Shown here: positions 4,936 through 50,451 of the stretch, in pieces
Layout of the letters: every line of letters starts with the position of its first letter
Numbering within the stretch: position 1 is the stretch's first letter
NCBI RefSeq assembly: GCF_900215535.1
Contig: NZ_OCND01000002.1
Span: forward strand, 434,001-498,000
Direction of reading: 5' to 3'
Source: Pseudoxanthomonas wuyuanensis
GTDB taxonomy: Bacteria; Pseudomonadota; Gammaproteobacteria; Xanthomonadales; Xanthomonadaceae
DNA length: 64,000 nucleotides
The notes under the pieces: generated by a model
What the model saw: only the letters and a program-made list of their open reading frames with translations
Databases searched by the model: none
Told to the model about the DNA's origin: nothing
Position numbers and translations under genes: made by a program

Positions 4936-5583
4936 ATGGCCGGCGTGTTGCGGGCAGAGGCGTCCGGCGCCGCCGCCAAGACGCCGCCGGACTTGCCGAA
5001 ACCGCAGCTGCTGGCCGCACTGGGCACGGTGCTGTGCCTGTACCGGCCCCAGCATGGCGGTGAACTGAGCGGCTGGACGCAGGCGGTACGTGCGGAGGTG
5101 CGCGCCGGCGTCGACAGCGACGGCCTGTGCGAAAGCCTGCTGTTCTTCGATGGCGAAGGCCGTTGTTGCTGGCGCCTGTACCTGTTGCCGGACAGCGACT
5201 TTCTGGCCTGGGACAGGTTGCTGGCGACGCTGCCGCCTTGCCGCGAAGCGGAAGCGGCCGGCGGCATAGGCGAGCGCCTGTGGCGAAGGCTGGCCGGTCG
5301 CCTGCTCGGCGAGAAATGGCGCGCGTCCGCATTGCGTCTGCATCTGTTGCACAACCCGGCCGGGCCGTGGGCGCTGGCCGCCAGCCCTGCGCGGATATCG
5401 CCGTTGGGCGCGACCACCGCCCGCCGCATCCTGCTGGCCGAAGGCTCCGAAGGGGAACTGCCGGTGGACGACTGCTGTTGCGCAGGCGCTGCGGCGCGTA
5501 CGGCATCCGCGCGAACAACCTCAACTCCCGATGCTGGCAACGCCGGCACCTGGGTCATCCCCAACCAGAGAACGCAACCATGA
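4936..5583 (+). CDS. Unknown protein of the haem uptake operon
   Basis: A 215-residue protein that I do not recognise with confidence. It begins 5 bp after the receptor stop and its own stop overlaps the next gene by ATGA, so it is translationally embedded in the haem operon. No signal peptide or membrane helix is visible, suggesting the cytosol. Features: a W/C-rich segment CCWRLYLLPDSDFLAWDRLL, a basic stretch LWRRLAGRLLGEKWRASALR, and a C-terminal DDCCCAGAAARTA with three adjacent cysteines followed by a low-complexity tail. A GTG at 4924 overlapping the receptor stop is an alternative start. A haem-handling role (trafficking or degradation) is inferred only from location. Confidence 0.7.
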   Translation: MAGVLRAEASGAAAKTPPDLPKPQLLAALGTVLCLYRPQHGGELSGWTQAVRAEVRAGVDSDGLCESLLFFDGEGRCCWRLYLLPDSDFLAWDRLLATLPPCREAEAAGGIGERLWRRLAGRLLGEKWRASALRLHLLHNPAGPWALAASPARISPLGATTARRILLAEGSEGELPVDDCCCAGAAARTASARTTSTPDAGNAGTWVIPNQRTQP

Positions 5584-8848: not shown

Positions 8849-9407
8849 GGGCGGGTTCCTCGATTTGCAGCAGTGTGCGCAGGCGGCGAGTGCCGCGCGC
8901 GAGTTGCGATTTGGAAAAACTGGGCGTGCGCTGCATCAGGCCGGCAATCTCCTCATGGGTATAGCCCTCGGCGTGATACAGCCACAGCACGCTGCGAGTG
9001 GTGGCCGGCAGCTTCGCCAGCGCGCGCTGCAGCAGTGCGGCATCGGCCGCGGCTGGCGGCAGGGGACCGCTGTCGCCGGGCAACTCGTCTTCTTCGACGT
9101 TGATTTCCGCCACCAGCCGGCGCTGGCGCCGCAACCGCATCAGCGCCTCGTTGACCGCGATCTGGCGCAGCCAGCCCCAGAACGGGCTGCCGCCGCGGTA
9201 GTCGCCGATGTGATGGAACAGTTTCAACATGGTGTCCTGCAGTACTTCAGCAGCCTCTTCGCGGTCGCCGCAGATGCGCAGCGCCAGGGTGAAGACCGGG
9301 CGTTCGAAGCGGCGGTAAATCTGCTCGAACGCGTCCTGCCGCCCGCCGCGGGCGCGGTCGAGCAGGGTGTCGGGTACATCGATGGCGAAGCTGGAGACGG
9401 GCGGCAT
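8841..9407 (-). CDS. ECF-type RNA polymerase sigma factor
   Basis: A 188-residue sigma-70 family protein with the ECF two-domain layout: region 2 (FEQIYRRFERPVFTLALRIC, then EEAAEVLQDTMLKLFHHIGD, WGWLRQIAVNEALMRLRRQR) and region 4 (LPATTRSVLWLYHAEGYTHE followed by EIAGLMQRTPSFSKSQLARG). The start at 9407 (MPPVSSFAID) places region 2 at the usual distance; an upstream Met at 9446 is possible. It heads the three-gene operon with the anti-sigma factor and the two-PDZ protein. The stimulus is unknown; PDZ partners suggest envelope or misfolded-protein stress. Confidence 0.92.
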   Translation of the reverse strand: MPPVSSFAIDVPDTLLDRARGGRQDAFEQIYRRFERPVFTLALRICGDREEAAEVLQDTMLKLFHHIGDYRGGSPFWGWLRQIAVNEALMRLRRQRRLVAEINVEEDELPGDSGPLPPAAADAALLQRALAKLPATTRSVLWLYHAEGYTHEEIAGLMQRTPSFSKSQLARGTRRLRTLLQIEEPAHA

Positions 9408-9487
9408 GTATCTCTCTGGATGCGGCACCGGGCAAAACCGTCGCAACCGTCGGCGTCCGGACCGGATCCCGGCCGCTGGCGTACGTC

Positions 9488-9493
9488 TATACT
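9488..9493 (+). promoter_or_regulatory. Likely -10 box of the band-7 operon
   Basis: TATACT lies 36 bp before the ATG of the band-7 gene. No good -35 hexamer is visible at 17-18 bp upstream, so the promoter call is weak. A strong ribosome-binding site, GGAAAGGAAGGGG, lies between it and the start. Confidence 0.35.
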
Positions 9494-9528
9494 CGCTCCA
9501 TATCTAGGGAAAGGAAGGGGTAGTTGGC

Positions 9529-10485
9529 ATGTTCGAGACAAGTTTTCTGGCGCTCATCATCCTGTTCGCCGGGGTAATCGTGCTGTTCAAGGCGGTGCGG
9601 ATGGTGCCGCAGGGCTATGAGTGGACGGTGGAGCGCTTCGGCAAGTACACCCACACGATGACCCCGGGCCTGCACTTCCTGATCCCGGTGGTCTATGGGG
9701 TCGGCCGCAAGGTCAACGTGATGGAGCAGGTGCTGGACGTGCCCAGCCAGGAGGTCATCACCAAGGACAACGCGGTGGTGAAAGTGGATGGCGTGGTGTT
9801 CTTCCAGGTGCTCGATGCGGCCAAGGCCGCCTATGAAGTGTCCAACCTGGAGATTGCGACCATTGCGCTGGTGCAGACCAATATCCGTACCGTGATCGGT
9901 TCGATGGACCTGGACGAGTCGCTCAGCAACCGCGAAACCATCAACGCGCAGCTGCTCAACGTGGTCGACCAGGCCAGCAACCCGTGGGGCATCAAGGTCA
10001 ACCGCATCGAAATCCGCGACATCCAGCCGCCACGCGATCTGATCGACTCGATGGCCCGGCAGATGAAGGCCGAGCGCGAAAAGCGCGCGCAGATCCTGGA
10101 AGCCGAAGGGTCCCGGCAATCGGAAATCCTGCGCGCCGACGGCGAGAAGCAGGCCGCAGTGCTGGAAGCCGAGGGTCGCAAGGAAGCCGCGTTCCGCGAT
10201 GCCGAGGCGCGCGAGCGCCTGGCCCAGGCCGAGGCCAAGGCGACCGAGATGGTGTCCGACGCGATCGCCAAGGGCGATGTGCAGGCGATCAACTACTTCA
10301 TTGCGCAGAAGTACGTGGAGGCCTTCAAGGAACTGGCCACCGCACCCAACCAGAAGTTCGTGCTGATGCCGATGGAAAGCAGCGGCATCATCGGTTCCAT
10401 CGCGGGCATTGCCGAACTGGCCAAGGAGGCGCTGGGCAAGCAGCAGGCCGCGCCGCCGCGCGTGCCGCCGCGGGCGGGAGGCTGA
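9529..10485 (+). CDS. SPFH/band-7 membrane protein (stomatin/QmcA type)
   Basis: A 318-residue inner-membrane scaffold protein: N-terminal helix (about 5-25, FLALIILFAGVIVLFKAVRM), the SPFH domain (about 20-180) with ERFGKYTHTMTPGLHFLIP and NRIEIRDIQPPRDLIDSMAR, a charged coiled coil (about 180-240, repeated EAEGRKEAAFRDAEARERLA) and a hydrophobic C-terminal patch. This matches stomatin/QmcA (YbbK) proteins, which form oligomeric rings in the membrane and regulate proteases such as FtsH. The NfeD-like gene begins 4 bp later, the usual pairing. Confidence 0.93.
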   Translation: MFETSFLALIILFAGVIVLFKAVRMVPQGYEWTVERFGKYTHTMTPGLHFLIPVVYGVGRKVNVMEQVLDVPSQEVITKDNAVVKVDGVVFFQVLDAAKAAYEVSNLEIATIALVQTNIRTVIGSMDLDESLSNRETINAQLLNVVDQASNPWGIKVNRIEIRDIQPPRDLIDSMARQMKAEREKRAQILEAEGSRQSEILRADGEKQAAVLEAEGRKEAAFRDAEARERLAQAEAKATEMVSDAIAKGDVQAINYFIAQKYVEAFKELATAPNQKFVLMPMESSGIIGSIAGIAELAKEALGKQQAAPPRVPPRAGG

Positions 10486-10488
10486 GCC

Positions 10489-10920
10489 ATGCGCTGGGAT
10501 GTGGTCAGCTGGGCGGCGATAGCGCTGCTGTTGTTTGCGGCCGAGGCGCTGGCACCGGGCGCGTTCATGCTGTGGATGGGTTTTGCCGCGGTCGCGCTGT
10601 TCCTGGGCGTGCTGCTGATCCCGGGAATCCCGCTGCTGGCGCAGGTGGCGGCTTTCGTCGTGCTGAGCTTCGTCTCGATCCAGATCTACCGTAAATGGTT
10701 CCGCGCGCATGCGCGGCAGAGCGACAAGCCGCTGCTCAACCGCCGCGCCGAACAGTTGATCGGCCTGGTCGCGCCGCTGGATCAGGCGATCGCTGGCGGC
10801 CGCGGTCGGGTCAAGCTGGGCGATGCGTACTGGGTGGTGCAGGGTCCCGATCTGCCGGCAGGCACGCCGGTGCGGGTTATCGCCGTGGATGGGATGACGC
10901 TGAAGGTGCAGGAGGCCTAG
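10489..10920 (+). CDS. NfeD-like membrane protein
   Basis: A 143-residue protein with three membrane helices (about 5-22, 27-45, 47-63) and a C-terminal OB-fold-like domain (GLVAPLDQAIAGGRGRVKLG, then WVVQGPDLPAGTPVRVIAVD), typical of short NfeD/YbbL proteins. It is paired with the SPFH gene 4 bp upstream; NfeD and SPFH proteins are known partners in the membrane. The next gene starts on the base after its stop codon. Confidence 0.9.
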   Translation: MRWDVVSWAAIALLLFAAEALAPGAFMLWMGFAAVALFLGVLLIPGIPLLAQVAAFVVLSFVSIQIYRKWFRAHARQSDKPLLNRRAEQLIGLVAPLDQAIAGGRGRVKLGDAYWVVQGPDLPAGTPVRVIAVDGMTLKVQEA

Positions 10921-13752: not shown

Positions 13753-14216
13753 GCGGCGTATGCCGGCGATGGCCGCTTTCCGAATCCTGCCCACGGCGGC
13801 GCCGTGCCTGCCGACGAACGGTAGGCGAATGCATCCGGCTGCCGTTGAGCCACCGGTTTGCGCCGCATGCCTCGATGCCGCCTTGGCGTCGGCTTTGCGC
13901 GCATGCGAATGGCTCGCATCGGAGCCGGGCGTTTGCGGACGGCATGGTTCAACCCGCCAGCGTCGAACAGCGCCGGTAGCGAATGCGACGCCCGGTTTGC
14001 GGGCGTCAAAAAACTCGCGCCGGCGTGTCGCCGCCGCCGCCGCCGATGCGGATCGGGATGCGACTCGCGCGCATCGATACCTGCCGGCAGTGCCGCGCGA
14101 AGGCAAAAAAGTTCGCGCAAATTCGCGCAATCGGGCTTGTGCGACGCGAAATCGGCAATCGGAAATCACTTTTTTTTTAGCTGCCGTTTAGGACGCCGAA
14201 GCGGCCTGGCGAAGTA
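13753..14216. other. Intergenic stretch after gcvH, no gene seen
   Basis: About 460 bp without a credible coding frame; open frames here have no family signature or ribosome-binding site. It holds a GCC-type repeat run (CGCCGCCGCCGCCG near 14032) and a run of nine T at about 14170-14178 without a good hairpin in front. Confidence 0.5.
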
Positions 14217-37592: not shown

Positions 37593-39413
37593 GTGAAAAT
37601 CGAAGGAGTAGAGGCGCTATTTCACGAGGGGCGGTACAGCCAGGTCGAAATGCTGGCGCGAAAAGCGCTAGCGGACATGCAGAATGGGGATGTGGGCGCT
37701 TCGTGGCTGAGCCTGCTTGCCTTCAGCCTTGCGGCACAGGCACGCCCACAGGAGGCGCGGGAGATATTCGCGAGACTTGCCCGGCAGCAGGCGCACGAAC
37801 CGGTGCACTTGCTCAATCTTGGTAACGCCTGTCTTGAGGTGGGAGATCCACAGGCAGCCGTCGAAGCATTCGAGCGGGCACATTCAATGGGTGCAGAGGG
37901 GACCGCCTACTTGCTTGGATATGGTTTGGCTTTGCTCGCCTGCGCGAAGTTCGATCAGGCACGAGAACTGCTGGCTGAGGCGCATGCGCTGGAGCCTGAT
38001 GCAGTGGACGTGCGTCTGGCGTACGCGCAATGCTTGGCCGAACTGGAATACTTCGACCGGATAGAGGGACTTGTTGGGTCCTTGAAAGAGGATGCGCTGA
38101 CACAGGAGCAACGGCGAGTGTTGGCATGGCTGTTGGCGCAGGCAGGCGATGATGAACGAGCCGTAGCTGCATACCAACGTTTGCTCATTGCGGATGCAGA
38201 TGATGTGGAGTCACGGATAAAGTTGGGGCTGTTATTCGAACGGCTGAATCGCCTTGACAAAGCTGAAGCGCTGCTACTGCACAAATCGGTCGCCCAGGCA
38301 CCTATCGATGCCATGAAGGCATTGGCGCTGGGAAGGCTGCGACGAAGATTGGGAGACGGTGCAGGTGCTGCCGTGTTGCTGGAGCAGGGGAGAGCGCTTG
38401 CATCGGGAGGCGCAATGATGGCCCAGATCCACTTTGAGTTGGCCAAGTGCTATGACGGTACGGACCAACCTGACGCTTGCATGGCCGCGCTTGCTATTGC
38501 GCACGAGCAGGCGGAAGTGGCGTTCCAACAGCGCTTTCCAAATGTGTCGCGCTACGACGTTCTAGGATGGCTGAAAGAGCGGGTCGAACATGATGCGCCC
38601 GTAGCTTGGCAGATGCCTATCGAGGATGGGACTGCACAAGACCCAGTATTCCTGGTCGGATTTCCGCGCTCTGGCACGACGTTGCTTGAGCGCGTACTTG
38701 ATGCCCATCCAGCCCTGAGTGTGCTGGACGAACGGCCAGCGCTGGAGGCTGCCATTGCCGAGTTGTGGCGGTTGCCCCGCTGGCGCGACCAGAGCCTGTC
38801 TGATGCATTGGATGGCCTCGATCCCGCAGTACTTCATACTGCCCGGAGCATCTACTGGCGGGAGGTGGAGCGGCATGTCGTGCCGCATGGAAGGCTGGTG
38901 GACAAGTACCCACTCTATTTGACGCGAGTGCCGTACGTAGCGCGGCTGTTTCCCAGAAGCGTCTGGTTGCTGCTGCTACGCCACCCCTGTGATTGCGTAC
39001 TCAGCTGCCATATGCAGGCATTTGGAATGAATGGTGGGGCGCTTGTTTTTCGAACCATTGAAACAACGGCCGAGGCATATGCGGCCGCAATGGAGCATTG
39101 GGAATCGCAGATATCAAGAACGCCCATGCCGGTGCATACATTGCGCTACGAGGATCTGGTGACGGATTTTCACGGTCAGTTGGACCGTGTGATGGCCTTT
39201 TTGTCACTTGCGCGGACAGCTACGCAGGATGACTTCAGCATGAAGGCGGCTCATCGCGATCGACGAATTAATACCCCCAGCTATTCGCAGGTGATACAGC
39301 CAGTCAATTCGTCAGCGATCGGCCGCTGGCAGCGCTACCGGCGATATTTCGGCGAACGTACGCTCGGCCTGTTGCGTCCTTGGGCGGAGCGCTACGGCTA
39401 TAGCCTGGAATGA
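37593..39413 (+). CDS. TPR-sulfotransferase fusion protein A
   Basis: A 606-residue protein: tetratricopeptide repeats over about residues 1-320 (GRYSQVEMLARKALADMQNG; HLLNLGNACLEVGDPQAAVE; DVRLAYAQCLAELEYFDRIE; KLGLLFERLNRLDKAEALLL) and a PAPS-dependent sulfotransferase domain (about 345-600). The 5'-phosphosulfate loop is G356-FPRSGTTLLERVL and the 3'-phosphate site R-HPCDCVLS near 463-471. ETTAEAYAAAMEHWE and RYEDLVTDFHGQLDRVM are typical of Sulfotransfer_3 proteins. No signal peptide is seen, so action is cytosolic. The start is GTG at 37593. It converges with the 2OG dioxygenase, their ends overlapping by 16 bp. TPR parts usually bind protein partners, so a protein or peptide acceptor is plausible. 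Confidence 0.87.
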   Translation: MKIEGVEALFHEGRYSQVEMLARKALADMQNGDVGASWLSLLAFSLAAQARPQEAREIFARLARQQAHEPVHLLNLGNACLEVGDPQAAVEAFERAHSMGAEGTAYLLGYGLALLACAKFDQARELLAEAHALEPDAVDVRLAYAQCLAELEYFDRIEGLVGSLKEDALTQEQRRVLAWLLAQAGDDERAVAAYQRLLIADADDVESRIKLGLLFERLNRLDKAEALLLHKSVAQAPIDAMKALALGRLRRRLGDGAGAAVLLEQGRALASGGAMMAQIHFELAKCYDGTDQPDACMAALAIAHEQAEVAFQQRFPNVSRYDVLGWLKERVEHDAPVAWQMPIEDGTAQDPVFLVGFPRSGTTLLERVLDAHPALSVLDERPALEAAIAELWRLPRWRDQSLSDALDGLDPAVLHTARSIYWREVERHVVPHGRLVDKYPLYLTRVPYVARLFPRSVWLLLLRHPCDCVLSCHMQAFGMNGGALVFRTIETTAEAYAAAMEHWESQISRTPMPVHTLRYEDLVTDFHGQLDRVMAFLSLARTATQDDFSMKAAHRDRRINTPSYSQVIQPVNSSAIGRWQRYRRYFGERTLGLLRPWAERYGYSLE

Positions 39414-39988
39414 TGCTGCGGGAAACGTAGGTAAGTGGACAGGATGTATTTGTCCTGGCTTGGAGAAGGCAGGCCTTGATGCGCGTACATCCAGTACGGT
39501 GGAAACATCAGTAGCCGTCCGGCACGTGGCGACACGCTGATGTCCAATCCAGGAAACCACGTCTGGCCGCCATCCTCCACATCGTTGAGATACCAGAGGA
39601 ACACTAGATAGCGGTCGCAAACTTCGTTGATCGAATCAAAGTGGGTCTGGAATTGTTCTTCACCATCCGCGTTGTAGCGTTTAAGAATTAGCGGACTAAG
39701 CAATGGGCTGTCCGGCACAGGAATCGGCAGCCCGACGTCCTGATTGTAGCGCTTCAGTTGTTCGCTGATCTGCGATCGAAAGAAAGCCAGGAACGCATTA
39801 TCGGACAAACGACTGACATCCAGTTCAGTCCAGGCACTGTTCTCCAGTCCCGGACGCACGCCGCGACCATTGCGTACCTGGAAGCGCGCCAGCGTATTAA
39901 ATGAGTCGATCAGCCGGCGGCAAAGGTCCGCCGGCAGATTGTCGTCATAGCAGCGGACAAAATGCCGCAGCGTCGGTGCACTGGACAT
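39398..39988 (-). CDS. 2-oxoglutarate/Fe(II) dioxygenase, prolyl 4-hydroxylase-like
   Basis: A 196-residue protein with the double-stranded beta-helix motif of prolyl hydroxylases: H116-F-D118 and H170 bind iron and K180 would bind 2-oxoglutarate. The text between (ILKRYNADGEEQFQTHFD; RYLVFLWYLNDVEDGGQTWF; SPRAGRLLMFPPYWMYAHQG) is typical of the P4Hc family. The start was taken at 39988 (MSSAPTLRHF), 46 bp after the receptor stop; a longer form starting at 40081 would overlap the receptor gene. It is probably co-transcribed with receptor A. Family members hydroxylate prolines or other side chains in proteins and peptides; the partner here is unknown. Confidence 0.87.
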   Translation of the reverse strand: MSSAPTLRHFVRCYDDNLPADLCRRLIDSFNTLARFQVRNGRGVRPGLENSAWTELDVSRLSDNAFLAFFRSQISEQLKRYNQDVGLPIPVPDSPLLSPLILKRYNADGEEQFQTHFDSINEVCDRYLVFLWYLNDVEDGGQTWFPGLDISVSPRAGRLLMFPPYWMYAHQGLPSPSQDKYILSTYLRFPQHHSRL

Positions 39989-40034
39989 AACCGCTGCGGC
40001 ATCTACCGCAGCGGTCGTCTGCTTCTTCAGCCCG

Positions 40035-42968
40035 TCAGAAACGGGCTGTCCAGCGCATCCAGTAGAACCGGCCGATGGCATCGTAGGTCCGCATGTCGGT
40101 GGAGGCGTTGAAACCAGAATAGACCAGTGGCGGCTGACGGTCGGTGAGGTTCCGCACGCCGATCTGGATCGAACTGTTGTTCAGACCTTCGAACCGATAG
40201 CCGATCTGGAAGTCGGTCTGAGTGAACGATGGTACGCGACGCTTTGCCACATAACCAGGCTCGGTAACGTCTGCCACATCCGGTGCTTCATAGACATGAT
40301 GCACGTAACGAGTCGTCAAACTGGCACTAACATTACCAAGCCTCCAACTGATGTCGTTGAGGGCGCGCCAGCGGGCCAAGTTACCGAATCCAGAAGAGGT
40401 CGAGTCGACGAAAGTTCCTGCCAGTCCACTACTTTCCGGAATACCCGGGAAGGCACCTACGTCGCTGCTCGGGTCACCAGCCAATAGCCGTACGTCGTAC
40501 TCAGCCAGATAGGTGCTGTCCAAGTTCCAGCTGAACCTGCCCCATGAGGTTTCCGGGAACAGATACCGCAGACCAATGTCGACGCCGCTCGTCTTCATCG
40601 TACCGAAGTTGCCGATGAGATTGGTCATCTGTGCAACATCGCCGCTATCATCGCGAACGAAGGTATCGCAGAACCGGCCGAAGCTATAGCACTGGTTCAG
40701 CATTACGTTTTCGGGCAAGTTGGTGATGAAGTCATCCAGCTTCACACGCCAGTAGTCGACCGTCACGCTGAAGCCTTCAAGCCAACTTGGGCTGTAGACG
40801 AAACCGTAGGTCAGCACGTCACCCTGCTCAGGCTGCAGATTGGGATTGGCAACTTGGAACGAGGTGACTTGGCTGTTGCTCTGGCGGAAGGAGCCGTCGG
40901 TGGGTACCCCGGCACAAGCACGAGGGTCCGCCGTCGCTTGACCGGTGTAACCGTTGCAAGGGTCGGTGTAGGTATTTGCGCTGGGGACGGTAGGTGCAAA
41001 CAAGTCGCCAATGGTCGGAGCGCGGAATACGTCTGCATACGTGGCGCGAACCAATAGATCGGAAACCGGCTTCCATTCCACGCCGATCTTGGAATTGGTC
41101 GTATCACCGAAGTTGGAATAATCCGAATAGCGGGTGCCCAGAGATACGTTCAGCTTCTCGGCGAAAGGCATGTCAGAGAGCACAGGAATCAGCGCTTCGG
41201 CATAAATTTCGTTGACGTCGAACGAACCGTTGATGTCGCCGAAGGTGCAAGCTTCCTGGGTGATCTTACAGACTGTTTCGCCCGGCGGAATGATGGTCAG
41301 GAAATCGCTGGAGGAACTTGCTGATTCCTCTCGCCTCTCCACCCCGACAGCCAATGACATCATGCCAGCGGGAAGTTCAAACAAATCGCCGGTGACGTTT
41401 GCGCTGAAGACCTTCAGCACATTCTCATTCGTGTTGTGGATGGTCGGATTGATCAAATCCAGCGCGGCCAACTGCGCCTGGCCAGCGGGCGTGTTCGGAT
41501 CCGGTGCAGGTCCCATAAAGTTAACGGGCAAACAACCCGGAATGGCTGTTGCGGCGTCACCTGGAGTACGGACGCAGATCGGGTTGCCGGTTGCAGGGTC
41601 AATCATGGAAGGCCCCAGAGCCTCGGTCAAGGCGGGGCTGTACAGGTAACCACGTACCGTCGAAGACTGAGGAGTGCGACCGTAGCCATACGACGCGTCC
41701 CACGTCCAGCTACTATCGCCGAATGCTCCACGAAGGCCGGCCGTGATCTGGTACGTTTCTGTCTCGAAACGTGTGGTACGAGTCGGAATGAAGTCGCGCA
41801 GGCGCAGGCGGGCGTCGGTGATGTCTACACCGAAGGGGTTGTAGATGCTGTCCGCGCTGATCGGCACATTATCTACAGCGGCACGGCCATCGAACGGCAG
41901 TGGTGCGATAAAGAAAGCAGAGTCCGTGCGCAACCAGGAGCCGAGTAGGAAGGCCTCTACGTTGTCCGAGATCTGATAGTTTCCGCTCAAGAACAGCGCA
42001 GTGCGCTCCTGCGGCGTCAGGTTGAGGTTGCCGTCAGCCTGGAAGTTGTAGACATCAGCGGAGGGATTGAAACAGCGGAAGTCCGATTGCGACGAGCCGG
42101 GACTGCCATCGATGCGGGTCAATACTACATTGGATCCGGCTCCGCAATTTGGATCGGTAAGATCCACGCCAGTGGCGGCGGAGCGCGGCACGACATAGCG
42201 GCCGGTCAGGATGCGGCTGGTACCGCCAATGCCATGCTCACCGGCATACAGCTGGTAGGGTTGGCTGGAATAGGCGCGGTCAGCGGCGCTGACTGAATCT
42301 TCTTGGTCGTAACTGGCACCGAGCATCAGTCGCCCGCGCTCACCCGTCATGCCGAAGATGGCGTCATAGCGTTCCGTATTGGCGTCGCCACGTGAAGAAA
42401 CACCATAGAAAGCGCTGGCTTCCAGCCCATCAAAATTCTTGCGAAGGATAAAGTTGACTACGCCGCCGATGGCGTCTGATCCATAAATCGCCGAAGCACC
42501 GTCCTTCAGAATCTCAACACGTTCGATTAGGCCCATCGGGATGGAGTTGATATCGACAGCACCGTTGGCATTGGAAACGGTACCGATCCAACGCCTGCCA
42601 TCTACTAGGACCAAGGTCCGGTTCACGCCCAAGCCACGCAGATCTACGGTGGCCGCACCCGCGCCGCCACCGTTGTTCACCTGTGGATTGGTAGCTGCGC
42701 CAGAGATGGCTGGACTGCGCTGCAGGAATTCGCCTACGGTTGCAGCACCGGAATTCTCGATAGTCTGGCGATCAATCGTGAACACTGGGCTGGAGGTTTC
42801 CATGTCTGCGCGCTTGATGCGTGAACCGGTAACCTCGATGGTGTCCAGAGTCTTCGCTTCGTTGCTGGCTTCCTGTGCGAATACGGCCCCCGTACTGGCG
42901 ATGCTGGCCGTACTCACAGCTAGGGCGAAGCTGATCGCCTCGCGCAGCTTTGTGGTCTTCTGGTTCAT
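40035..42968 (-). CDS. Large TonB-dependent receptor A
   Basis: A 977-residue outer-membrane receptor. The extended signal peptide MNQKTTKLREAISFALAVST is nearly the same as that of receptor B. After cleavage near VFAQEA come the TonB-box-like TIEVTGSRIKRADMETSSPV, the plug motifs VDLRGLGVNRTLVLVDGRRW and VEILKDGASAIYGSDAIGGV, and a long barrel with FRAPTIGDLFAPTVP and NPNLQPEQGDVLTYGFVYSP, ending IGRFYWMRWTARF with the terminal aromatic. The loops are long, as in receptors for oligosaccharides or peptides rather than siderophores. No Fur box is seen upstream. It lies just before the 2OG dioxygenase and is probably co-transcribed with it. Confidence 0.92.
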   Translation of the reverse strand: MNQKTTKLREAISFALAVSTASIASTGAVFAQEASNEAKTLDTIEVTGSRIKRADMETSSPVFTIDRQTIENSGAATVGEFLQRSPAISGAATNPQVNNGGGAGAATVDLRGLGVNRTLVLVDGRRWIGTVSNANGAVDINSIPMGLIERVEILKDGASAIYGSDAIGGVVNFILRKNFDGLEASAFYGVSSRGDANTERYDAIFGMTGERGRLMLGASYDQEDSVSAADRAYSSQPYQLYAGEHGIGGTSRILTGRYVVPRSAATGVDLTDPNCGAGSNVVLTRIDGSPGSSQSDFRCFNPSADVYNFQADGNLNLTPQERTALFLSGNYQISDNVEAFLLGSWLRTDSAFFIAPLPFDGRAAVDNVPISADSIYNPFGVDITDARLRLRDFIPTRTTRFETETYQITAGLRGAFGDSSWTWDASYGYGRTPQSSTVRGYLYSPALTEALGPSMIDPATGNPICVRTPGDAATAIPGCLPVNFMGPAPDPNTPAGQAQLAALDLINPTIHNTNENVLKVFSANVTGDLFELPAGMMSLAVGVERREESASSSSDFLTIIPPGETVCKITQEACTFGDINGSFDVNEIYAEALIPVLSDMPFAEKLNVSLGTRYSDYSNFGDTTNSKIGVEWKPVSDLLVRATYADVFRAPTIGDLFAPTVPSANTYTDPCNGYTGQATADPRACAGVPTDGSFRQSNSQVTSFQVANPNLQPEQGDVLTYGFVYSPSWLEGFSVTVDYWRVKLDDFITNLPENVMLNQCYSFGRFCDTFVRDDSGDVAQMTNLIGNFGTMKTSGVDIGLRYLFPETSWGRFSWNLDSTYLAEYDVRLLAGDPSSDVGAFPGIPESSGLAGTFVDSTSSGFGNLARWRALNDISWRLGNVSASLTTRYVHHVYEAPDVADVTEPGYVAKRRVPSFTQTDFQIGYRFEGLNNSSIQIGVRNLTDRQPPLVYSGFNASTDMRTYDAIGRFYWMRWTARF

Positions 42969-43065
42969 TCTCTCTCCGAGTGAGTCTAGTGCCTAGGGAT
43001 GCCTGGCCGGCAGTCCAAATGCAGCCGCCAAGAAGCCAGGTTTCCCAATCATAGACTTGGTTTCA

Positions 43066-43085
43066 GAAGAATTAAAGTGTCGTTA
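43066..43085 (-). promoter_or_regulatory. Leader motif shared by the two large TonB receptors (copy A)
   Basis: On the minus strand TTAACGACACTTTAATTCTT lies about 98 nt before the start codon of receptor A. An aligned copy (TTTACAAGACTTTAATTCCT) lies about 102 nt before receptor B. The core ACTTTAATTC is the same in both. It may be a promoter element or an operator. Confidence 0.5.
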
Positions 43086-43299
43086 ATCTCCATAATTCAT
43101 AGCATTTGAGCACTCATTCCCGATTTTATGAACCCGAACCGTTCAGGGAGTAAAAGCGATTAGGTTGGCGCACCGCGTGGCCCCAGAAGATTGCCCATGC
43201 AAAAGATCAGGCCGGTCGCTGGCCAAGCTAGGCTGCACTCTTTAGCTCGGCGGCGGGAGGGTGTCATGGTCAAGGGTATGGTGATTCAACGGCGGGGCT

Positions 43300-44530
43300 T
43301 GATAGCTGGAGCAGGGGCCTGCTGCAGCGCAGCGCGATGCTGGAATGCCTGGGACCGGGGTTGTGACGGATGAGGTCTGTGGCCAGACGAGCCGAACAGG
43401 CGGACTCGCGACCTGCCCGCTATTGGAGGATTCGATCGAACTGCCGACGCCGCGGTGCTGGTGCACATTCGCTGGTGCGACTCATGGTTTGATTCGCAGG
43501 CCCGGTCAAGTCTGGCTCGGAGCGTGCTGCGTCTGTCTGGCAGACCTCGATCCTGCCCGTGACAAGCTCGTCTGGCGGCCAATTACCCATTCAGCTTCAC
43601 GGCCTGGTCCCGCGGCACGCTTTCGCGGCGGTTTCGGCTTGCCCCGGTGCAGGATGGTGACCCCTTCGACCTCGCGGCCGCGATAGCCAGGATCCACGAC
43701 CGCCGTCTTCGGCTTCTGCCCGCTAACGAGCCCGAGCTGCTCAAGCTGTTCTTCCAGCATGTGGCCGTCGCATGGGGTGCCTGCAAACCTCCGTGCGCCG
43801 ACCACCAGCCCCTTCCGGCGGGGCACGGCAATGCCCACCTTCACCGAACTCGTACGGCTTGCGCGCCTTGCCTTTGCCGATGCACTTCACCTCCGGCGCG
43901 TGCAGCGCATACAGCTTGCCGCTGTCCTTCGGACGCTGGCTCCGGACCCGCTCAGCCTGCTCCAGCCAGACCTGCATCTGGTCGAGGGTGGTTGCATCGA
44001 GGGTGTCCAACTGCCGCCCGATATCCCGGGTCACTCGGCCCAGCAGTGTGCGCTGGCGCGCAACGCCCGACGCATCCGCTTGAACCGGCGCGCGTGCGCG
44101 TGCCGCCCGGCCTTCCTGGCCAGACCGGAAGCTTCACGGTCGTAGGCCTGCCCAGCCTTATCCCGTTGCGCCGGCTCAGCAGTGCCAGCTTCTTGCGCGC
44201 CATTTCCAGCAGCCGGCTATCGGTCGGGTGGGTGATGGCCTTCCTCCTGTACCGTGGTATCCACCATCACCCGCGACGGTTCCCGGGTATCGACCGCCTT
44301 CATCGACCGTGCCGCAGCAATCGTCTGCGCCAGCAACTCTTCCATCCCTACCTCGCCCAGCCGCTGACGCCAGCGCGTGAGCGAACTCGGGTTGCACGGT
44401 AGCTTCGTCTGGAACACCACCCGGTGAAGAGCTGCCAGTACGGGTTCTCCAACCAGCGCACGCAGACATCCTCGTCCGACAGATCGTAGGCGTGCTCGAT
44501 GAACGCTGGATTCGACGTGATTCAATCGCC
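43300..44530 (-). pseudogene. Decayed IS5-family transposase
   Basis: Read on the minus strand, consecutive segments of one transposase appear in different frames: FIEHAYDLSDEDVCVRWLEN (from about 44506), NPSSLTRWRQRLGEVGMEEL and VMVDTTVQE (about 44390-44255), ARKKLALLSRRNG (about 44200), TRDIGRQLDTLDATTLDQMQ with KARKPYEFG (about 44030-43840), and VVDPGYRG with GVTILHRGKPK (about 43700-43650). These are the N-terminal and DDE-domain motifs of IS5-group transposases (first Asp in VDTT, second in VVDPGY). At least three or four frameshifts break it, and I could not find intact terminal repeats. It lies between the two receptor/sulfotransferase sets. Confidence 0.85.
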
Positions 44531-44596
44531 ATGTGAATCGAAAGTCAAAACGCCCGTTGCGACTCTATGGAAGACTGGTGATGTCGTTCGAGAGCT

Positions 44597-46171
44597 TCAT
44601 TCACAAGAGATGCCCGAATCCATCAGCATCTGTTTGAGGCCGTCCATCTGCGTGCCGTAGCGCTTCCATCTGCCCAGGGCTGAACGGTAGATACCTTCGC
44701 GTACCTGTACGGCACTGGCGGTGGCAACTGGTGCGGCGTTTTTCTCGAAGCGTCGACAGGCCTCATCCCAAGGTAGGTTGCAATGGGAAAGTAATTTCCT
44801 GATGTTTGCCTCCTGCTCCTCGACCAGAGATTCGTAGCGAACTTGCAATATCCTGCCGGGGAGGGCTTGGTCCCAATGCGCCATCAGCCGATCGAACAGA
44901 ATGTAGTAGTTGCCCGTGTCCATTAGATCGTAGGAATAGTCGAAATACGGAGATTCGGGTGCGAATAGCTGTCTGAAATTGCTTAGGCAAGTGTCCATGG
45001 GATTGCGCCTCACGCACACGATTTTCGCGTTTGGCAGCGACATGGCGATGTACCCCAGGTACATGAAGTTGTGCGGAAGCTTGTCGGTGAAGAATGGGGA
45101 CGAGCCCACTAGTGGCTTGGTGCTGGCCAAGTAGGCTGCTCCCAATCTCTCCCAGTCAATATCCGTGGCTTTGGAAATGTGTTCGGGATTGAACATCTCG
45201 AATCCTGGCCCACCTAGTGCCCTTTTCCAGGCGGAGGGAAAGCAGTGCAGTTCGCCGGCTGAATGTACAAGCGGATGGCTGGACAGGATCCTATCCACCA
45301 GCGTGGTACCGCTACGGGGCATGCCGACTATGAAGATCGGCCCTTCCTCGCTGCAACCTGTGGGAGACAAGGCTGCTTCTGCCCATGGGAAGTTGCAGGC
45401 CAGCGCGTTGAATAACGCGTTCTCTCGCTCCCTCGAATATCCCAGCAGAGATTTTGGCGTATGCTTGCCAATGGAGTAGTGGTTGAAGGCTTTTTCGTAC
45501 TCCCCTATGTCTTCCAATTCTTTGGCCAAGGCCATGTTCAAGTAAGTTGTGGCGGTCACTCTGCCGACTACACCGGCAATGAGCCTGGAAAGCCTCGGGA
45601 TATGATTGGAGGCAATGGTTTGCTTGCGGATTTGTGCCAGAGAATGATGTGCCCTCCAATGATGAGGGTTGATGGCCAGACAGGCTTCGAGTTCGTGTTC
45701 GGCTTCCTCCAGTCTGCCGAAGAATGTCAGGGTCGTACCCAGGTTGAATCTGAATCCATCGTTCGTCGGCGTGATGCCGACCGCACGCTGGAATGCAATC
45801 AATGCGTTGGCGTGAGCATGGCATTGGCTGAAGATCACGCCAAGAGTGTCGTGAGCCAGGGCGTCTCCGGGGGCCACCCTTTCCATTGCGCGCTCGGCTT
45901 CCTGCAGCGCTGCGCCATAGTCCTGTAGCGAAGCATGGGTCCGGGCTAGGAGCAGTCTGAATTCCATGCGAGAGCCGTCCAGTGCCGCTGCCCGTTTCAG
46001 GTGGCCCAACGCTGAGAGGTTTTCATTGCGCTCTAGCAGTGACACGCCGGCAATGTAATGCGCGTCAGGATCCTGCGGCGAGCTGTCCAGTACTCTGGCT
46101 GCCAACGCTCCGGCTTGTTCCCAGCGGCACTGCTGCAGGGCGACGATCGCCTGCTGAATATCCGGATGCAT
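44597..46171 (-). CDS. TPR-sulfotransferase fusion protein B
   Basis: A 524-residue protein with the same layout as fusion A: TPRs over about 1-215 (IQQAIVALQQCRWEQAGALA; AHYIAGVSLLERNENLSALG; FRFNLGTTLTFFGRLEEAEH), then a sulfotransferase domain with the PAPS loop G283-MPRSGTTLVDRIL and the 3'-phosphate site VRRNPMDTCLSNF. Also seen are SSHPLVHSAGELHCFPSAW, FFTDKLPHNFMYLGYIAMSL and RYESLVEEQEANIRKLL. ATG at 46171 (MHPDIQQAI) follows AGGAA; an upstream Met at 46273 is less likely. It lies downstream of receptor B on the same strand, with a terminator between them, so transcription is probably separate. Sequence identity with A is limited to motifs, so the pair is not a recent duplication. Confidence 0.87.
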   Translation of the reverse strand: MHPDIQQAIVALQQCRWEQAGALAARVLDSSPQDPDAHYIAGVSLLERNENLSALGHLKRAAALDGSRMEFRLLLARTHASLQDYGAALQEAERAMERVAPGDALAHDTLGVIFSQCHAHANALIAFQRAVGITPTNDGFRFNLGTTLTFFGRLEEAEHELEACLAINPHHWRAHHSLAQIRKQTIASNHIPRLSRLIAGVVGRVTATTYLNMALAKELEDIGEYEKAFNHYSIGKHTPKSLLGYSRERENALFNALACNFPWAEAALSPTGCSEEGPIFIVGMPRSGTTLVDRILSSHPLVHSAGELHCFPSAWKRALGGPGFEMFNPEHISKATDIDWERLGAAYLASTKPLVGSSPFFTDKLPHNFMYLGYIAMSLPNAKIVCVRRNPMDTCLSNFRQLFAPESPYFDYSYDLMDTGNYYILFDRLMAHWDQALPGRILQVRYESLVEEQEANIRKLLSHCNLPWDEACRRFEKNAAPVATASAVQVREGIYRSALGRWKRYGTQMDGLKQMLMDSGISCE

Positions 46172-46377
46172 CTGATGAATTCCTGTAGTCGTTGAATCGC
46201 ATCCACTGAGGACTGTCATGCGGGCATCGGCCGTGTGATGAGTCATGCATGCTTCCCGCATTGTGCCAAACACTGGCCGCGGCAGATCGAACCCAAGGTC
46301 GCATTCGAACTCGCACTGCGCCTAACCCGGGACTTCACCGGTGTTGAGAGCACGTGGCTGGCTTCTTTTCTGGCGGC

Positions 46378-46411
46378 AAAAAACTACAGCCCCTTGCGGG
46401 GCTGTAGTCGA
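46378..46411 (-). terminator. Rho-independent terminator of receptor B
   Basis: CGACTACAGCCCCGC on the minus strand pairs with the following GGGGCTGTAGT around a short loop and is followed by six T (46383-46378). It lies about 30 bp after the stop codon of receptor B. Confidence 0.9.
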
Positions 46412-46440
46412 TGCAAACAACCTCTGATGCTATAGCAGGA

Positions 46441-49308
46441 TCAGAACTTCTGCTGGTAACGGGCGTAGAGGAAGCGACCCAGGTCGTGACCGCCGTAGAA
46501 CGAAAAGCCAGAAGCCGGGCTGGTGAAGAAGATCGGTGGATCCTTGCCGAATACGTTGTTGGCGCCGATCGCGATCCGTGCGTTCCATGGGGCAGACCAG
46601 CTTACCTGCAGGTCGTGGAAGGTGACCGAGCCAACACGGTTCATTGGAACGACTGAGCCCTGAGTCCATGGGGCCTGGTAATTCGGGTGCGAGCAATGCT
46701 CGTCGAAAAAGCACTCTTCCTTGGCGCCGGAATTATAGCGCATGCCCCAGGTGACGCCGAAATCGTTGAGAGTCCAACCCAGGTTCAGGTTGGAGCGGAT
46801 GCGGAAATTGACGCCGTTGTTGTCCGCGATGCCGTTGCTCTGTTCCGGGACGGTGTCTGCATCATTGGTCGACTTGAGTTCGTAGAGGCTGACGTAGGTC
46901 GTTGACCACTTCGCGTTGAATCGACCGTAGTCGGTATCCAGAACGTAGTTCAGATCCAGGTCGTAACCTTCGGTCTCGGTGTAGCCGGCATTGCGGCCAC
47001 CATACGACAAGTTGGTGACGATGTTGCCGAGGGCCGGATCACGCGAGAACAGGCCGCAACGGCTTTCGATCAGCGCCACGTAGCAGTCGCTCAGAATGTC
47101 GTTCGGGTGATCGGAAACGACCGTGTTGTTGATCCTGATGTTCCACCAGTCCAGTGCAACGGTCAGGCCCTGTGCAAAGCTGGGGCTGTACACGAAGCCG
47201 ACGGTCTTCGACTTGGAGAATTCCGGTTCCAGGAAGGGGTTGGAACCCGAGCGGAATGGTACCGGAGTCTGGGCGGCGGGTGTGTCGGTGACTTCGAAGC
47301 CCTGCTTCAGCTGGCGGTAGTCGGCAGGCACGTCCTGGAGACAGCGGGGCGAACCGGCGGCGTCTCCAAAAACGCTGTCGCAAGGGTCACGGAAGCCCGT
47401 GGTAAAGGTGTCCGTAGTGCCGCCGTACAGGTCGCCGATGGTCGGGGCGCGGAAGCCCTCGGACCAAGTAGCCCGGACCAGCAGATCGTCGATCGGACGC
47501 CACTTCAGGCCGAACTTGTTATTGGTGGTGTCGCCGAAGGTGTCGAAATCCGAGTAACGGGTGGCCACGCTCAGGGACAGTTCCTTGGCGAAGCTGAGGT
47601 CGGCCAGAATCGGGATGTTCAACTCGGCATAGACTTCATCCAGCGAGTATGAACCATAGGTCGGACCAGAAGCTAAGTTGGTGGAGTTGCCCGACTGCGC
47701 AATGGCGTCCGGAGTGAAGCCACCTTCTTCCTTGCGGTGTTCGACACCCACCGCGAAGGCCAGGTCGCCGGCCGGCAGCGTCCACAGCGAACCCGTCAAG
47801 TTGGCGAAGTAGTTGTTGGTCTCGGTTTTGCCCAGCGCGTGTTCCTGCTTGTACAGGAACGCCTGCACTGCTGGATCCTCCAGCGAGTTGGCCACTGCGC
47901 CAGTGCCGAAGCCGGCAAACGGGTTCCACGGCACACAACCGGCGATGACGCTGTCCGGCGCCCCGTTCTGGCCCTGGGTACCGCAGACGATCTGGCCCTG
48001 AGAATTCATGAACGACGGACCCACCGCCAGGCGGATGTTGGGGATATACAGGTTGCCGTTGTTGATGATCTGGAGGTCGTTCTCGTTGTACATGTAGCCG
48101 GCATCCCAGTCGAAATACCGGTCACCGATGTTGAACGAGCCTTCCAAAGCCGCGGTGAAGCGCCAAGTGGTCTGATTGGTGTCCGTGGTGCGCGGCACTT
48201 CCCATCCACGGCGACGCCAGTTGACCGGGTCGGTACCGCCAGTCGGGTTGAAATAGCTGGCGGCGGACATTGGGGCCTGGATGGCGGCAGCTTGGGACTG
48301 GGTCGGATAACCGGCGATCTGACGGAACGACTGGCGTTTGGTGTAGCCCAGGTCGGTAACGAAACGGACCTTATCCGTCAAATCGTAGTTTGCGCTGACG
48401 AACAGTGAACGGCGTTCGAGCGGAGTGAGCGTATGCATCTGGTCGCTCGGCTTGCTGGTGTCATCCGCCGTCTGGTTGTGCCAACCACCGGGACCCAGCG
48501 CATCGCTGCCACGATCGGCGACCTGCCAGGGGCCGGTGCTGCCGACGCGCCAATTGCCCCACTGGCCGACGACCGTGGTGCTGTACTGCGGGTAGCCCGG
48601 ATAGCTGTCGTTGGTAAACCAGCGGTCGCGAGCCCAGACACCGTCTTCCTTGTGGTACTCGGCCCCGATGGTGAGCGAACCGCGATCGCCTGCCATGCCG
48701 ATCATGAAGTCGTAGGTCTGTTTCTGCCCATCGCCCTCGTCGTACTGGCCAAAGTAGACATTGGCTTCGGCGCCTTCAAAGTTCCGGCGAGTGATGATGT
48801 TGATCACACCGGCCATGGCATCGGAGCCATAGATAGAGGAAGCGCCGTCCTTCAGGACATCGATGCGCTCAACCACGACAGACGGTATGGTGGAAACGTC
48901 TTGGAAACCATCGGGGCTGATGCCCAATCGCTTGCCATTGAGCAGCACCAAGGTGCGCTGAGCCCCGAGGTTGCGCAGGTCGATGTATTGGCCACCGGCT
49001 TCCTGGTTGGCCGTCAGCGGCGAGGTGCGACTGAAGGTTGGATTGCCCGCGGAACTGATGTTTTGCAGGATGTCGGCAACGGTGTTGAAGCCACCGGCCT
49101 GGATATCTTCGCGACTGATCGTCAGGACCGGCTGCGCGTTCTCAAGTTCGACCTGGCGGATGCGGCTGCCGGTAACTTCAATGCGGTCCAGCGTGGTTGT
49201 TTCCGTTGCTTCCTGGGCAATGGCAGCGCCAATACCTGCGGACGAAACTGTTCCGACCGCAAGCGCGAAGGTAATCGCGTCACGGAGTTTGGTGGTGTTG
49301 CAGTTCAT
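46441..49308 (-). CDS. Large TonB-dependent receptor B
   Basis: A 955-residue outer-membrane receptor, related to receptor A. The signal peptide MNCNTTKLRDAITFALAVGT (cleavage near AIAQEA) is followed by IEVTGSRIRQVELENAQPVL, plug motifs YIDLRNLGAQRTLVLLNGKR and IDVLKDGASSIYGSDAMAGV, and barrel motifs FRAPTIGDLYGGTTDTFTTG and LEPEFSKSKTVGFVYSPSFA; the end is LGRFLYARYQQKF. Long loops rich in W, Y and P (e.g. WARDRWFTNDSYPGYPQYST) suggest a large ligand such as a glycan or peptide. It has its own terminator and a leader of about 250 bp with the motif shared with receptor A. Confidence 0.92.
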   Translation of the reverse strand: MNCNTTKLRDAITFALAVGTVSSAGIGAAIAQEATETTTLDRIEVTGSRIRQVELENAQPVLTISREDIQAGGFNTVADILQNISSAGNPTFSRTSPLTANQEAGGQYIDLRNLGAQRTLVLLNGKRLGISPDGFQDVSTIPSVVVERIDVLKDGASSIYGSDAMAGVINIITRRNFEGAEANVYFGQYDEGDGQKQTYDFMIGMAGDRGSLTIGAEYHKEDGVWARDRWFTNDSYPGYPQYSTTVVGQWGNWRVGSTGPWQVADRGSDALGPGGWHNQTADDTSKPSDQMHTLTPLERRSLFVSANYDLTDKVRFVTDLGYTKRQSFRQIAGYPTQSQAAAIQAPMSAASYFNPTGGTDPVNWRRRGWEVPRTTDTNQTTWRFTAALEGSFNIGDRYFDWDAGYMYNENDLQIINNGNLYIPNIRLAVGPSFMNSQGQIVCGTQGQNGAPDSVIAGCVPWNPFAGFGTGAVANSLEDPAVQAFLYKQEHALGKTETNNYFANLTGSLWTLPAGDLAFAVGVEHRKEEGGFTPDAIAQSGNSTNLASGPTYGSYSLDEVYAELNIPILADLSFAKELSLSVATRYSDFDTFGDTTNNKFGLKWRPIDDLLVRATWSEGFRAPTIGDLYGGTTDTFTTGFRDPCDSVFGDAAGSPRCLQDVPADYRQLKQGFEVTDTPAAQTPVPFRSGSNPFLEPEFSKSKTVGFVYSPSFAQGLTVALDWWNIRINNTVVSDHPNDILSDCYVALIESRCGLFSRDPALGNIVTNLSYGGRNAGYTETEGYDLDLNYVLDTDYGRFNAKWSTTYVSLYELKSTNDADTVPEQSNGIADNNGVNFRIRSNLNLGWTLNDFGVTWGMRYNSGAKEECFFDEHCSHPNYQAPWTQGSVVPMNRVGSVTFHDLQVSWSAPWNARIAIGANNVFGKDPPIFFTSPASGFSFYGGHDLGRFLYARYQQKF

Positions 49309-49409
49309 TCTCTCTCTCCCGAATAGGGGTGAACACTTAGGTAGCCCTCAGCACAACCAAACGTTGAAAGCTGCAAAGTGAGGGGTGACCGGATACTAGT
49401 CGGATTCGG

Positions 49410-49569: not shown

Positions 49570-50451
49570 TCAGAGGTCCTGCTCGTACCGAACGTAAGGC
49601 ACGGTGCCTTCGTCGACATTCTCATTATTCAGTGAGAATGGATTCTTGCCGCGGGTGACGACGTTTTCGGCGCCCACGGTGAGTTGGCCGCTCCAGGGGG
49701 TGCGCCAGGTGACGCCCAGGCCCAGGCCTTCCCATTTGCCGGGTTGGCCGGGGACATCGACGACACGGCCGATGATGTTGGCGCTGAATGGGCCGTAGCC
49801 GCCGCCGATGCTCAGACTCTTGCTGTTCCAGTTGTCGGCCAGGGCGGGGACATCGGCGGGCGAAACCAACCGGGCACGGGCGACGGTGCCGCCGATGGAA
49901 ACGAAGCCTTCGGTGCCGATGTCCTTCTGGCCGAACACGGCCAGATCGCTCTGTTCGATGCGGTTGCCGGCATTGCGGCCCGACGACAACCAGGCGGGCA
50001 GCGTGTCGCGGCCGGTGCCGACCGACAGCCCCAGCCGGCCGCCAGGGCGCGCCAGCGCCGCGCCAGCGCTGGCGCGCTGGCTGAGCGGGTTGTTGTCGTC
50101 GCCGTCGCCCAGGGTGGCCAGCATGCAATGGCTGGCGAGATTGCCGATGCTGCCCACAATGCCGCTCTGGCGATTGCAGACCAGGCCCAGTTCGTCGCCA
50201 GCACTAAGGCCAAAGGCGGTGGTCAGCGTGTTGCTGCCGAAGCGCCAGCGGGCGCCTGCGGTGGATTCGCCGGTGGGTTCCAGCAGCAGCACCGCTTCGA
50301 CTTCGCCGCTGGTGTTGTTCCAGACAGGCAGTGCGGTGGCGTTGCGGGCGGAAGCAGGCTTGGCCTGGGTCCTGGATTGCGCATGCGCGCCCGCCGCCAC
50401 GCCCAAGGCGAGCAACACAGCGAATGGCAATCGGAGGCAACGCAGGTTCAT
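49570..50451 (-). CDS. Small outer-membrane beta-barrel-like protein, unknown
   Basis: A 293-residue protein with a signal peptide (LPFAVLLALGVAAGAHAQ). The mature part is rich in glycine and alternating hydrophobic strands (ARWRFGSNTLTTAFGLSAGD; GRLGLSVGTGRDTLPAWLSS; SLSIGGGYGPFSANIIGRVV; WEGLGLGVTWRTPWSGQLTV). The end GAENVVTRGKNPFSL...PYVRYEQDL looks like the last strands of a TonB-dependent receptor (compare GANNVFGKDPP...LYARYQQKF of receptor B), but no plug is present. Two cysteines (CNRQSGIVGSIGNLASHC) could pair. It is probably a porin-like or accessory outer-membrane protein. It lies upstream of receptor B, divergent from nothing, and downstream of hslO. Confidence 0.7.
   Translation of the reverse strand: MNLRCLRLPFAVLLALGVAAGAHAQSRTQAKPASARNATALPVWNNTSGEVEAVLLLEPTGESTAGARWRFGSNTLTTAFGLSAGDELGLVCNRQSGIVGSIGNLASHCMLATLGDGDDNNPLSQRASAGAALARPGGRLGLSVGTGRDTLPAWLSSGRNAGNRIEQSDLAVFGQKDIGTEGFVSIGGTVARARLVSPADVPALADNWNSKSLSIGGGYGPFSANIIGRVVDVPGQPGKWEGLGLGVTWRTPWSGQLTVGAENVVTRGKNPFSLNNENVDEGTVPYVRYEQDL

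Follow-up and report, generated by a model that had tools for sequence, protein, structure and literature searches.

Organization of the locus

The window, the whole stretch of 64,000 nucleotides of Pseudoxanthomonas wuyuanensis DNA that we analysed, holds two TonB-dependent receptors (TB1 and TB2), two fusions of a TPR region to a sulfotransferase domain (ST1 and ST2), and one P4H-like oxygenase (P4H); the original prediction had placed all five correctly (Table 1). Each of the five genes is an open, high-scoring frame. On alignment with homologs, the true start of P4H is probably 39991, hence it would not overlap TB1, and that of ST2 probably lies near 46171. Both receptors match the plug and barrel models of Pfam (TB1: PF07715 at 7e-25, PF00593 at 2e-39; TB2: PF07715 at 4e-19, PF00593 at 1e-34) and are 35% identical to each other (BLASTP); no siderophore-receptor model matched TB1 above its cut-off. 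The PAPS motifs of the sulfotransferases are intact, as previously asserted (GFPRSGTT and RHPCDCVLSC in ST1, GMPRSGTT in ST2), and inspection of ST1, ST2, and P4H revealed no hydrophobic N-terminal signal sequence, in keeping with the claim that the sulfotransferases lack a signal peptide.

Table 1. Features of the receptor and enzyme locus (positions in the window)
Feature	Coordinates	Strand	Domains and family matches
ST1	37593..39413	+	TPR (~residues 1-315) fused to TPST-like sulfotransferase domain (~345-606); Pfam PF13469 and TPR
P4H, P4H-like 2OG-Fe(II) oxygenase	39398-40081 (listed ORF)	-	Pfam 2OG-FeII_Oxy_3, PF13640
TB1, TonB-dependent receptor, conserved partner of ST1	40035..42968	-	Pfam Plug and barrel
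Leader upstream of TB1	42969..43086	-	Partly conserved with L077 and L079
ST2, second TPR-sulfotransferase	44597-46273 (listed ORF)	-	TPR and Sulfotransfer_3 (Pfam PF13469)
TB2, second TonB-dependent receptor	46441..49308	-	Pfam Plug and barrel
XOO1806-family protein, flank of the locus	49570..50451	-	NCBIfam NF052276, 429 bits

The composition of ST1, P4H, TB1, and ST2 sets them apart: their G+C content is 0.56-0.59, versus 0.65 for the whole window, and their third-position G+C is 0.62-0.67, versus mostly 0.75-0.88 in the surrounding genes. The 1.6-kb gap between TB1 and ST2 contains no recognisable gene or remnant. In the 4.67-Mb genome we counted 56 Plug matches, six Sulfotransfer_3 matches (three of them TPR fusions), and a single gene of the P4H clade.

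The leader of TB1 is 73% identical over 126 nt (blastn) to the sequence preceding TB1 in one related locus (L079). A 61-nt segment of leader and signal peptide (MN..TTKLR[ED]AI.FALAV) is common to TB1 (42916-42976) and TB2 (49256-49316); it was absent from the other receptor loci of this genome among the 30 read, and it is not general in TB1 orthologs. We considered the signal-peptide leader 'TTKLR[ED]AI' as a docking tag and rejected it as a general one, since the pattern occurs in only eight of 79 TB1 receptors.

Conservation of TB1, ST1, and P4H as a module

Relatives of ST1 and P4H from the whole bacterial order were picked by similarity of the enzyme, not by proximity to a receptor, and we fetched the genomic surroundings of each. 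A TB1-clade receptor lies at most 5 kb from 78 of the 84 ST1-clade genes, with a gap below 600 bp at 69 of the 84, and P4H is found within 5 kb of 40. Seen from the oxygenase, a TBDR is at most 5 kb away for 40 of the 47 P4H-clade genes, and receptor and sulfotransferase are both that close for 39, several of the exceptions falling at contig ends. Adjacency of TBDR and 2OG oxygenase is thus conserved across genera. After dereplication of ST1 at 65% identity, 29 of 34 clusters keep TB1. Weaker P4H homologs (146-175 bits) are distant from sulfotransferases of the ST1 clade. A scan of genome contigs with a single protein returned only three close relatives.

The order of the genes varies: we observed TB1>ST1>P4H (18), TB1>P4H with ST1 convergent (eight), ST1>TB1>P4H (five), and TB1> ST1< P4H> (three). 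Their pairwise distances are strongly correlated (0.82 for TB1 and ST1, 0.75 for TB1 and P4H), whereas the correlation of TB1 with its chromosomal neighbour Hsp33 is 0.16 (16 loci). Since order and strand vary while the genes co-diverge, TB1, ST1, and P4H appear to move as a unit. Many of the modules with P4H occupy one site, the same as in the window, between PEPCK/sigma/DUF4097 and XOO1806/Hsp33; others are elsewhere on the chromosome, for instance in Stenotrophomonas (L009, L011) and in L142. The TB1 of the window is 85% identical to that of Stenotrophomonas, and ST1 52%. Six sampled relatives of the same genus (G008, G015, G017, G024, G030, G031) carry at the same chromosomal site a TB1 only ~44% identical, and one of them (G031) has in addition a module at another place, with a TB1 77% identical to that of the window. 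From these identities and shared sites, the module appears to travel, or to be replaced, as a unit.

TB1, ST1, and P4H together form a conserved module, which is the core of our finding. The receptor-sulfotransferase-P4H linkage is kept in many genera with rearranged order, and the neighbourhood is not a proximity peculiar to one genome, the outcome that would have refuted the original prediction. In two genomes without P4H, remnants of the gene stand beside intact ST1 and TB1 (L231, ~14051-14206; L232, ~4973-5212), a probable case of recent loss judging from the residual sequence. The XOO1806-family protein borders modules in many genomes; it is a conserved flank, outside the mechanism proposed below. 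A profile of its C-terminal part also fits the last TB2 strand, and it may be a small outer-membrane barrel linked to the locus.

ST2, TB2, and the wider pairing of receptors with TPR-sulfotransferases

Two receptor-enzyme sets had been predicted, of which the ST1/TB1 set stands, with P4H part of it; the pairing of ST2 with TB2 is not conserved. At least six other genomes (L077, L079, L144, L145, L157, L166) have an ortholog of TB2 (669-1066 bits) that adjoins TB1 or ST1, with no ST2 between them. Given this recurrence, TB2 is an optional member of the module. ST2 is probably a local addition, and ST2-TB2 is a weaker, local pairing.

Elsewhere, enzymes of the ST2 type often adjoin other receptors. 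Tandem pairs of ST2-type TPR-sulfotransferases lie directly beside a protein of ~1050 residues (L092-L096, L100, L102, L106), in most of those loci a recognisable TonB receptor; the tandem pair plus receptor is a second conserved receptor-sulfotransferase arrangement. The third TPR-sulfotransferase of the P. wuyuanensis genome (L072, G000:C14:189001-209000, at 9306-10880) is a close relative of ST2 (532 bits), adjoins a protein that by eye is TraB/GumN-like, and lies ~3.9 kb from a TonB receptor; it is duplicated in L097. On Pseudoalteromonas plasmids (Alteromonadales; L263, L266, L267) a TonB receptor is immediately followed by a TPR-sulfotransferase, and a Novosphingobium plasmid (L264) brings together a receptor, a sterol desaturase, and a TPR-sulfotransferase. 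There seems to be a wider rule that TPR-sulfotransferases adjoin TonB receptors, with ST1/P4H/TB1 as its tightest case.

Relatives and catalytic residues of the enzymes

Among PDB structures, the catalytic domain of ST1 is closest to the human protein-tyrosine sulfotransferases. It matches 8w5z (TPST) at 7.5e-15 over domain residues 8-259 and TPST2 at ~1e-13; the next-best other family is CurM (1.4e-4), and the glycan (heparan sulfate) sulfotransferases reach only E 0.18-1.1. Residues R359, E380, K438, R463, and S471 are present in all 82 ST1 homologs, the equivalence of the catalytic R/E/K being taken from the alignment with TPST; in human TPST2 the catalytic Arg, Glu, and Lys are R78/E99/K158. 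Whole-domain homology, the catalytic R/E/K, and the 3'-phosphate motif, sequence features expected of the TPST family, are thus all found in ST1. The AlphaFold2 model of ST1 is confident only in the TPR part, and a Foldseek search with it returned TPR superhelices alone, such as that of O-GlcNAc transferase. For ST2, TPST is again the best solved relative, with the same ranking of families at weaker scores.

The profile of the P4H family places it nearest to the prolyl 4-hydroxylases, the closest solved structures being bacterial members (2e-9). The iron triad HxD...H is intact (H147 and D149 in 47 of 47 sequences, H201 in all 46 that could be resolved), and K211, ten residues past the distal His, is likewise present in 46 of 46 resolved sequences. 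Collagen-type prolyl hydroxylases as a rule carry at this position the Lys that binds 2OG. No PiuC/PKHD model of NCBIfam matched P4H at E<=1, a comparison without a positive control, as a control 2OG oxygenase of the same genome gave none either. The AlphaFold2 model of P4H has a mean pLDDT of 38.9.

Related modules often contain a third enzyme, TPR-AspH, in which a TPR region is fused to an aspartyl/asparaginyl beta-hydroxylase domain (PF05118, Asp_Arg_Hydrox); it occurs in 46 of 82 module loci (e.g., L076:12818-14146). Among solved structures human AspH comes nearest to it (1.3e-24), and 43 of 47 sequences have the motif HxGxTN. The nearest curated NCBIfam models are the lipid hydroxylases OlsC (102 bits) and LpxO (58 bits), each scoring well under its cut-off. 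TPR-AspH was not found in the P. wuyuanensis genome by a search that succeeded in identical form in three positive-control genomes. P4H and AspH are each missing from about half of the module loci, and thus neither is essential. TPR-AspH also occurs near other sets of receptor and TPR-sulfotransferase in genomes of the same genus (L098, L099, L101, L103, L104, L107).

Search for the substrate

In a search for a linked precursor peptide, none of 768 small ORFs in the gaps of the modules was common to more than four loci. The recurrent neighbours, only some of which are annotated with family models, include no recognised exporter, inner-membrane transporter, regulator, biosynthetic core, glycosyltransferase, or glycan or lipid gene. 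Methanobactin-type RiPP clusters pair a TBDR with a sulfotransferase. Here we found no conserved precursor, and MbnA, MbnB, and MbnC went unrecognised among the recurrent neighbours listed, of which only some carry family annotation. With no conserved precursor ORF, TB1 is therefore the only constant partner that is not an enzyme.

Turning to the receptor itself, comparison of TB1 sequences revealed no Pro confined to P4H-linked receptors, and most of the conserved Tyr residues of TB1 also occur in TB2 and, within the region compared, in an unlinked paralog that P. wuyuanensis carries at G000:C19:211715-214549. Among residues that might track the enzymes, only R252, Q310, D360, and Y441 follow P4H, and they are too confounded with phylogeny to interpret.

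Proposed function and alternative explanations

According to the original prediction, the target of the enzymes is the receptor, a ligand of it, or a partner peptide, and we infer as much here. We suggest, with a probability of about one half, that TB1, ST1, and P4H (elsewhere also TPR-AspH) constitute one module whose target is a polypeptide required by TB1, most probably TB1 before its export. ST1, P4H, and TPR-AspH would all modify proteins in the cytoplasm: ST1 would hold a polypeptide with its TPR solenoid while its TPST-like domain moves sulfate from PAPS, most likely to a tyrosine, and P4H would hydroxylate a residue, likely a proline. TB1 would be modified in the cytoplasm, while it awaits Sec export in unfolded form; a partner or ligand peptide from another locus is a less likely target. 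A polypeptide is the most likely kind of substrate because the three families are best known for polypeptide modification and no precursor, transporter, glycan, or biosynthetic genes were recognised among the neighbours; TB1 is the most economical candidate because it passes through the cytoplasm unfolded. Against tight co-evolution of enzyme and substrate counts the far stronger conservation of TB1 than of ST1 (85% versus 52%). The proposal is weakened further by the lack of a Pro specific to P4H-linked receptors, by the broad sharing of the conserved Tyr residues, by the loci without P4H or AspH, and by the lipid substrates of OlsC and LpxO, the characterised bacterial PF05118 enzymes that come nearest. 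More specifically, the module may be a cytoplasmic counterpart, devoted to one receptor clade, of the modification set of the animal secretory pathway, comprising tyrosine sulfation, proline hydroxylation, and aspartate/asparagine hydroxylation, with a receptor that needs to be modified before export in order to work; this stronger version we regard as rather doubtful.

The main rival to modification of the receptor, following the proposals for CciO and PiuC, is that the enzymes act on the ligand of TB1, making, capping, or breaking down an imported small molecule or short peptide, as with CciO/PiuC/YbiX. TonB receptors ordinarily import ligands, pairs of a receptor and a cytoplasmic 2OG oxygenase are known with three ligand-centred models (PMC12004947; PMC12004943), and the Novosphingobium plasmid locus with its sterol desaturase hints at small-molecule chemistry, albeit with a sulfotransferase of a different clade. 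Such a pathway would nonetheless have to do without a biosynthetic core, exporter, inner-membrane transporter, or regulator recognised among the recurring genes. TPR solenoids are, moreover, unusual in small-molecule sulfotransferases, and it would leave three unrelated families, whose best-known members modify polypeptides, converging on one receptor. We consider a role centred on the ligand to be a serious possibility, if on the whole somewhat unlikely. It is quite unlikely, in our judgement, that the enzymes act on an exported protein or peptide from another place in the genome, for which TB1 serves as uptake or export channel or as receptor. Bacteria do sulfate exported peptides, as RaxST does RaxX (PMC6637879), and TB1 is without a modification signature; yet no precursor was found nearby, and the substrate would have to exist wherever the module moves, the module being found at several chromosomal places.

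Modification of an envelope glycan or lipid, with the receptor nearby only through clustering of such loci, would fit the breadth of Sulfotransfer_3 and the presence of the lipid hydroxylases OlsC and LpxO in PF05118. We think it very improbable: the partner of the module is specific to one receptor clade, the recurrent neighbours include no recognised glycosyltransferase or lipid gene, and glycan sulfotransferases match ST1 far less well than TPST does (E 0.18-1.1 versus 7.5e-15). The objection that the sulfotransferase might act on a polysaccharide, raised with the original prediction, is disfavoured on the same grounds, as protein-tyrosine rather than glycan sulfotransferases are the closest relatives of the catalytic domain and glycan genes are missing from the recognised recurrent neighbours. 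Finally, the genes might be neighbours by chance or by inherited chromosomal position, with no functional link, considering how common receptors are (56 Plug matches in 4.67 Mb) and how many modules with P4H share the PEPCK...Hsp33 site. From the P. wuyuanensis genome we estimated that a random gene lies at most 5 kb from any receptor in about 1-2 cases in 10, and from a TB1-clade receptor (two members in the genome) in <1%, as against the 78 of 84 observed. Together with the changes of order, the several chromosomal sites, and a co-divergence that is mutual rather than with Hsp33, this makes coincidence scarcely credible.

Comparison with known systems

The animal enzymes TPST1 and TPST2 align with ST1 over the whole catalytic domain, with the R/E/K residues and the C-terminal block ...S..QV..P.N..A..W kept; ST1 differs in being bacterial, cytoplasmic by prediction, and fused to a TPR solenoid. 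Similarly, human AspH has the same order of TPR and oxygenase domains as the bacterial TPR-AspH, and its TPR domain binds the peptide substrate; the human enzyme resides in the ER lumen, where its targets are EGF-like domains (PMC6817910), whereas the bacterial enzyme is predicted to be cytoplasmic. Within bacteria, the RaxST-RaxX-RaxAB system of Xanthomonas, from the same order, provides tyrosine sulfation by a TPST-like enzyme (PMC6637879). The layout here is different, as had been noted: no RaxX-like double-glycine precursor or ABC exporter was recognised in the TB1 module, the sulfotransferase is fused to TPR, and a receptor takes the place of the exporter.

By analogy, the closest precedent for the module is found in CciT-CciO of Caulobacter and PiuA-PiuC of Pseudomonas. 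In these, as in Fiu-YbiX of Escherichia coli, a TonB receptor adjoins a cytoplasmic 2OG-Fe(II) oxygenase, and the pairs are broadly co-conserved. They are also functionally important (PMC12004947, PMC12004943): in Caulobacter, iron import through CciT depends on CciO (PMC12004947). The earlier statement that no such system is known must accordingly be narrowed, given that the pairing of a receptor with a cytoplasmic dioxygenase is on record (CciT-CciO, PMC12004947); as for the version with a sulfotransferase, we found no description of a receptor-linked TPR-sulfotransferase, or of its combination with P4H and AspH, in the open-access literature searched. Unlike the known pairs, which have neither sulfotransferase nor AspH, the module described here includes a sulfotransferase and, in other genomes, AspH, and its oxygenase, whose closest matches are prolyl 4-hydroxylases, carries a Lys ten positions beyond the distal His.

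Pairs such as PiuA-PiuC and CciT-CciO bear on iron uptake and on resistance to siderophore antibiotics, and they raise the question of why an outer-membrane receptor needs a cytoplasmic enzyme. To this partnership of receptor and dioxygenase the TB1 module adds two types of enzyme of known protein-modifying chemistry. If the receptor is what they modify, a bacterial outer-membrane protein would carry sulfated tyrosine, for which we found no earlier description. The sequences of a receptor and, next to it, of enzymes resembling those that decorate human proteins suggest that a receptor or its partner is modified in a hitherto undescribed manner.
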